Both the position numbers and the translations under genes were made by a program. A model generated the notes under the pieces. That model was not told the DNA's origin, did not search any database, and saw only the letters and a list, made by a program, of their open reading frames with translations. This document shows, one piece after another, positions 54,012 through 54,194 of a DNA stretch of 61,135 bases. Position 1 is the stretch's first letter, and every line of letters starts with the position of its first letter. Source of the DNA: Candidatus Zixiibacteriota bacterium (GTDB taxonomy: Bacteria; Zixibacteria; MSB-5A5; GN15; PGXB01); the NCBI GenBank assembly GCA_900498245.1, contig LS998015.1, forward strand, positions 3,246,668 through 3,307,802. Reading direction: 5' to 3'.

Positions 54012-54194
54012 TCAATCAATGGTCGCAATAGCCGCACCGGCTATCATTCCGAGCAGGATGGCCCGCCCGGGGTTACATATCAGCGGTCAGGCGCCTCCCA
54101 GGGCTCCGTAGAGATAAAAGACGCCCATTCCGGCTACACCACCCAATATAATTCCAAGGGCCAGTTTTGCAAAAAATTTTTTACTTAATCTCAT
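54012..54194 (-). CDS. Putative DUF6132-like membrane selenoprotein (in-frame UGA)
   Basis: 60 codons if UGA at 54087-54089 is read as selenocysteine (position 36). The ATG at 54194 overlaps the end of the DUF302 gene by 14 bases; the true stop UGA at 54012-54014 lies 8 bases before the FmdB start. Translation gives two membrane helices (about 8-30 and 44-59) around LGGAUPLICNPGRA. This aligns with small DUF6132-type proteins whose core, as I recall it, is YG-x(2)-G-x-CPITSNP, with Sec replacing the Cys. U36-x3-C40 is a possible selenenylsulfide pair. A hairpin of bSECIS geometry follows the UGA. If UGA were a stop, a 35-residue single-helix peptide and an untranslated coding-like tail would remain. 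Confidence 0.72.
54049..54070 (-). promoter_or_regulatory. Candidate bacterial SECIS hairpin
   Basis: Counting from the UGA, bases +17 to +25 pair with +30 to +38 (CCGGGCGGG with CCTGCTCGG, two G-U pairs). If the top G-C pair opens, the apical loop at +25 to +30 is GCCAUC and begins with G. Known bacterial SECIS elements lie 16-37 bases after the UGA with a G in the first two loop positions, so distance and loop both fit. Confidence 0.6.

Follow-up and report, generated by a model that had tools for sequence, protein, structure and literature searches.

A probable bacterial SECIS hairpin after an in-frame UGA in a gene for a 60-residue, two-helix membrane protein of Zixibacteria

Bacterial SECIS elements (bSECIS) are described by a consensus comprising a stem of 4–16 bp, a loop of 3–9 nt lying 16–37 nt after the UGA, an MFE of ≤ −7.5 kcal/mol and a G as the first or second loop nucleotide, usually with G or U after it (PMC13188914). 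The catalogued small or membrane selenoproteins include a putative mercuric transport protein, YeeE/YedE, DG, DW, DF, GOS_B, GOS_C and Tso, of which DG, DW, DF, GOS_B and GOS_C are names of hypothetical proteins (PMC13188914, Table 1). Catalogued selenocysteine forms of the OsmC and FmdB families also exist elsewhere (PMC13188914, Table 1). Here we describe a locus of a Candidatus Zixiibacteriota bacterium, contained in a window of 61,135 nucleotides (the whole stretch of DNA that was analysed), in which a hairpin directly after an in-frame UGA is very probably a bacterial SECIS directing selenocysteine into a 60-residue membrane protein. The features of the locus, in order along the minus strand, are as follows.

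54569–54988, minus strand: OsmC-family protein, conserved upstream neighbour (Pfam PF02566; synteny)
54181–54567, minus strand: DUF302 protein, directly upstream, overlapping the start of the candidate selenoprotein gene (Pfam PF03625; synteny)
54012–54194, minus strand: candidate selenoprotein gene with two predicted transmembrane helices, 60 codons (translation; same UGA column in 66 homologues)
54087–54089, minus strand: in-frame UGA, codon 36, putative selenocysteine (invariant Cys in homologues; complete Sec machinery)
54049–54070, minus strand: bSECIS-type hairpin (fold, synonymous-recoding test, pair counts)
53797–54000, minus strand: FmdB-type zinc-ribbon protein, directly downstream (PF09723; synteny)
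53202–53741, minus strand: thioredoxin-like lipoprotein with lipobox LPGC, downstream in the host family (PF13098; sequence; synteny)

The stem of the hairpin consists of nine base pairs formed on the minus strand between CCGGGCGGG (54070–54062) and CCUGCUCGG (54057–54049), which enclose a 4-nt loop, CCAU (54061–54058). The hairpin spans 17–38 nt after the UGA (54089–54087), with the stem beginning at 17 nt and the loop at 25 nt (rule 16–37), and the constrained hairpin fold has an MFE of −15.9 kcal/mol (rule ≤ −7.5). Folding thus reproduced the 9-bp stem, the 17-base spacing and the coordinates given in the initial annotation of this DNA. Its further claim of a match to published bSECIS rules holds for distance, stem, loop size and energy, but for the leading G only if the top pair is opened, a proviso that it had correctly attached: the strict loop, CCAU, carries C rather than G at positions 1 and 2 and lacks the usual G[G/U], while opening the top G-C pair gives GCCAUC, with a leading G and then C. 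The loop of the sister species is GCAAUA, and three genes from other phyla have canonical apical loops (GGUC, GGUC and GGU). GGUC-loop hairpins follow the UGA in L103 and L095, which are DUF6132-like genes of other phyla. Each of the nine stem pairs has a probability of 0.80–0.89 within a 284-nt transcript stretch, so the stem dominates the local fold and no better competing fold, the outcome that would have told against the hairpin, was found. An Rfam scan of the window returned no matches. The published rules were described from the outset as loose, and indeed 27 of 44 native genes pass them against 21.5 expected from synonymous recodings; the strict bSECIS geometry rule was therefore rejected as proof.

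Selection on RNA structure was assessed in 44 Zixibacteria orthologues against a null model of synonymous recoding, in which the protein was kept and the codon usage of each locus was applied. For the 36-nt segment from +12 (+12 to +48 after the UGA), the mean z was −2.26, with negative values in 43 of the 44 genes, and the host gene alone gave −2.50. Segments lying wholly or mostly before the UGA ranged from +0.20 to −0.65 and those starting from +24 onward from −0.95 to +0.70, with a weaker second dip, down to −0.95, at starts of +36 to +42. Mean z was −1.80 in 13 additional Zixibacteria UGA genes and −0.92 in the nine UGA genes of other phyla, and the signal vanished in the 27 Cys homologues (mean −0.38, sem 0.24). 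As the z peak lies at +12 to +48 and is gone in the Cys homologues, selection on RNA structure acts mainly at the position required for a bSECIS and is confined to genes that need one, which supports the original proposal that the hairpin is a bacterial SECIS. Dinucleotide shuffles of the single 60-nt sequence (z −1.18, 23 of 200 as stable) were too weak to decide.

Base-pair covariation was examined in a gapless alignment of the 12 host-family genes, in which four of the nine stem pairs show changes in both partners, with pairing in 71% of cells; the observed pairing level was reached by 7 of 500 shuffles and the covariation score by 2 of 500. Sliding the partners by −1 or −2 yielded similar covariation scores, and fixed-register covariation in the host family is therefore moderate only. 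The slide result fits stem-shifting bulges, of which it is not proof, and bulges occur in single folds of some members (e.g. L013 and L015). RNAalifold recovered six pairs of the 9-bp stem in the host family and added a lower stem. Across 50 genes, covariation is weak phylum-wide and no single register survives, and one consensus structure for all Zixibacteria was rejected, as RNAalifold finds none in the 50-sequence alignment. Compensatory changes, by which the hairpin was to be judged, are thus present among close relatives but follow no fixed phylum-wide register. Yet the stem diagonal of the window is the most over-paired in both the host's and the sister family (z 4.8 and 4.6), and each gene therefore retains a hairpin in place while the register of the stem drifts.

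The same data bear on the possibility, which we consider unlikely but the best placed of the alternatives, that the protein is a selenoprotein whose true SECIS is different or larger, with the 9-bp stem as a side feature; examples would be a lower stem (alignment columns 3–9 with 47–54) or a further hairpin at around +38 to +56. While the lower stem added by RNAalifold, the weaker dip at starts of +36 to +42 and the varying register across the phylum are compatible with such an element, the segment with the strongest signal contains just the 9-bp stem, whose pairs also form with high probability in context.

With its single internal UGA read as U, the gene is translated as MRLSKKFFAKLALGIILGGVAGMGVFYLYGALGGAUPLICNPGRAILLGMIAGAAIATID and ends at a TGA stop codon (54014–54012, minus strand); ordinary gene calling would cut it at the internal UGA and leave a 35-residue fragment. 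UGA is found at exactly this codon in 66 genomes (57 Zixibacteria and 9 from other phyla), with one occurrence in each gene, invariably in the Cys column, and homologues without UGA (27 genes) carry Cys in that column, as checked in a 50-member alignment. An invariant Gly and, in most members, a CNP pattern follow the UGA in frame, and coding constraint downstream resembles that upstream, with pN/pS of 0.53 and 0.43, respectively, in the host family and 0.63 and 0.59 in the sister family. Synonymous differences (pS) in the host family are lower after the UGA (0.48) than before it (0.61), as expected given the added RNA constraint. These observations make it very improbable that the UGA is a real stop ending a 35-residue one-helix peptide, with the hairpin either incidental or serving translation coupling to FmdB: UGA does act as a stop elsewhere in the genome, including at the end of this gene, and the FmdB start in the host lies just 90 nt beyond the UGA, but the protein is conserved past the UGA under like constraint on both sides, Cys-bearing homologues read straight through, and the structure signal is absent from Cys homologues, with FmdB likewise lying downstream in several of these.

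The host genome, a 3.5-Mb single contig, encodes adjacent selA and selB, a selC with a UCA anticodon (71.9 bits) and a selD (L062, 438747–439673, minus strand) with its own in-frame UGA in CAGUASKLGP. As selA is present in nearly every genome within the phylum, presence or absence of the Sec machinery is uninformative there, and the comparison was instead made in other phyla. In these, selA and a high-scoring tRNA-Sec occur in each of the nine UGA carriers, compared with selA in 5 of 13 Cys carriers (Fisher p 0.0055); RF01852 matches below about 50 bits were ignored because equally strong matches occur in genomes without selA. A non-Sec reading of the UGA (Trp or Gly by code reassignment, Cys via an opal tRNA), with the hairpin as a by-product of codon usage, is the least probable of all, for although one internal UGA per gene cannot alone separate Sec from other readings, the codon is confined to a single occurrence in the Cys column, the host has tRNA-Sec, selA, selB and selD, UGA carriers outside the phylum track selA, and the structure signal survives a codon-usage-matched null.

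Under the favoured reading of the hairpin as a bSECIS, SelB carrying Sec-tRNA(UCA) would bind it and deliver selenocysteine at the UGA that precedes the stem by 17 nt, and translation would run on to give a 60-residue membrane protein with Sec36, the position of Cys in relatives. AlphaFold2 predictions for three sequences (mean pLDDT 79.8) place helices at residues 2–33 and 42–59, with Sec36 in the link. The predicted protein would thus carry Sec36 in a short loop between two transmembrane helices, near a second Cys (UxxxC), and this loop probably faces the periplasm, given the strongly positive N terminus (mean net charge 3.35) and the positive-inside rule. A second Cys is located at U+4 in 46 of the 66 UGA genes and 4–7 residues before U in 16, with one member having both; five have Cys at neither position, L105 among them, with its Cys at U+3 instead. 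Among the loci compared (L010–L134), the partner Cys lies after Sec in most Zixibacteria and before it, as C-x(3-6)-U, in others. This distribution suggests that the resolving Cys moved sides during evolution.

The gene order OsmC, DUF302, candidate selenoprotein, FmdB is conserved in most Zixibacteria UGA loci, often preceded by YyaL and, in the host family, followed by the thioredoxin-like lipoprotein. In the window, thioredoxin-fold genes flank the cluster on both sides (a YyaL/DUF255-type gene at 55084–57141 and the small LPGC lipoprotein at 53202–53741), and the stomatin and NfeD genes adjoining it (50873–52283) recur in several related loci. No internal UGA is present in the OsmC (54569–54988) or FmdB (53797–54000) genes of the window. 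This conserved neighbourhood suggests a redox role involving thiols or persulfides on the periplasmic side of the membrane, in which Sec36 could take part through selenenylsulfide exchange, perhaps with the thioredoxin-like lipoprotein, OsmC or DUF302 proteins.

The window protein scores 13 bits (E 0.084) against Pfam DUF6132 (PF19628), below the gathering cut-off of 23.2 bits, and 11 of the 50 aligned members match this family at E ≤ 0.1 (best 7.8e-07). On profile similarity, we therefore regard it as a distant relative of DUF6132 and do not assign it to that family. Against NCBIfam, the window protein had no match, and the 50-member alignment gave scattered weak matches only. Neither the window family nor DUF6132/PF19628 appears among the 119 prokaryotic selenoprotein families catalogued in 2026 (PMC13188914, Table 1), and the passages in which the deep-Sep paper lists new families do not include the window family (PMC12013277). 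A literature search retrieved no paper on DUF6132 or PF19628 as a selenoprotein, with supplements and named database annotations being places that could hold the family. We consider it likely that these genes constitute an uncatalogued selenoprotein family, comprising a two-helix protein of about 60 residues with an inter-helix Sec, found in no fewer than 57 genomes of Zixibacteria and 9 of other phyla, and marked by a switch of the resolving Cys and a drifting SECIS register. Such a family would extend the prokaryotic selenoproteome by a membrane selenoprotein that is both widespread and very small, and would point to a role for selenium in the conserved OsmC-DUF302-FmdB-thioredoxin neighbourhood of largely uncultured bacteria. 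The 66 naturally occurring SECIS sequences, all within genes for one short protein, would also be useful for establishing what SelB really recognises.

The candidate family shares with the catalogued small and membrane selenoproteins a putative Sec at a redox Cys site, Cys homologues and a poorly known protein, and differs in the lack of an NCBIfam model match for the window protein. It shares with DUF6132 a length of about 60 residues and two helices; the Cys homologues carry the DUF6132 motif C-x(3,4)-G-x-C-P-[LI]-T-S-N-P, in which Sec would replace the second Cys, whereas the window protein falls below the family cut-off and most zixibacterial members have the partner Cys after Sec (UxxxC) rather than before it. 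The host SelD likewise combines an in-frame UGA with a subsequent hairpin, whose loop lies 20 nt after the UGA, but that loop (GUU) is canonical and the protein is unrelated. As in bSECIS of the E. coli fdhF type, the hairpin lies within the coding sequence shortly downstream of the UGA, shows little sequence conservation and falls within the stem, loop-size, distance and MFE ranges; the CCAU loop without G[G/U] sets it apart, while GGU loops do occur in relatives from other phyla. The hairpin behaves like a bacterial SECIS and, on most of the tests applied, is one; systems of this kind have been described before, and the protein family appears to be new.
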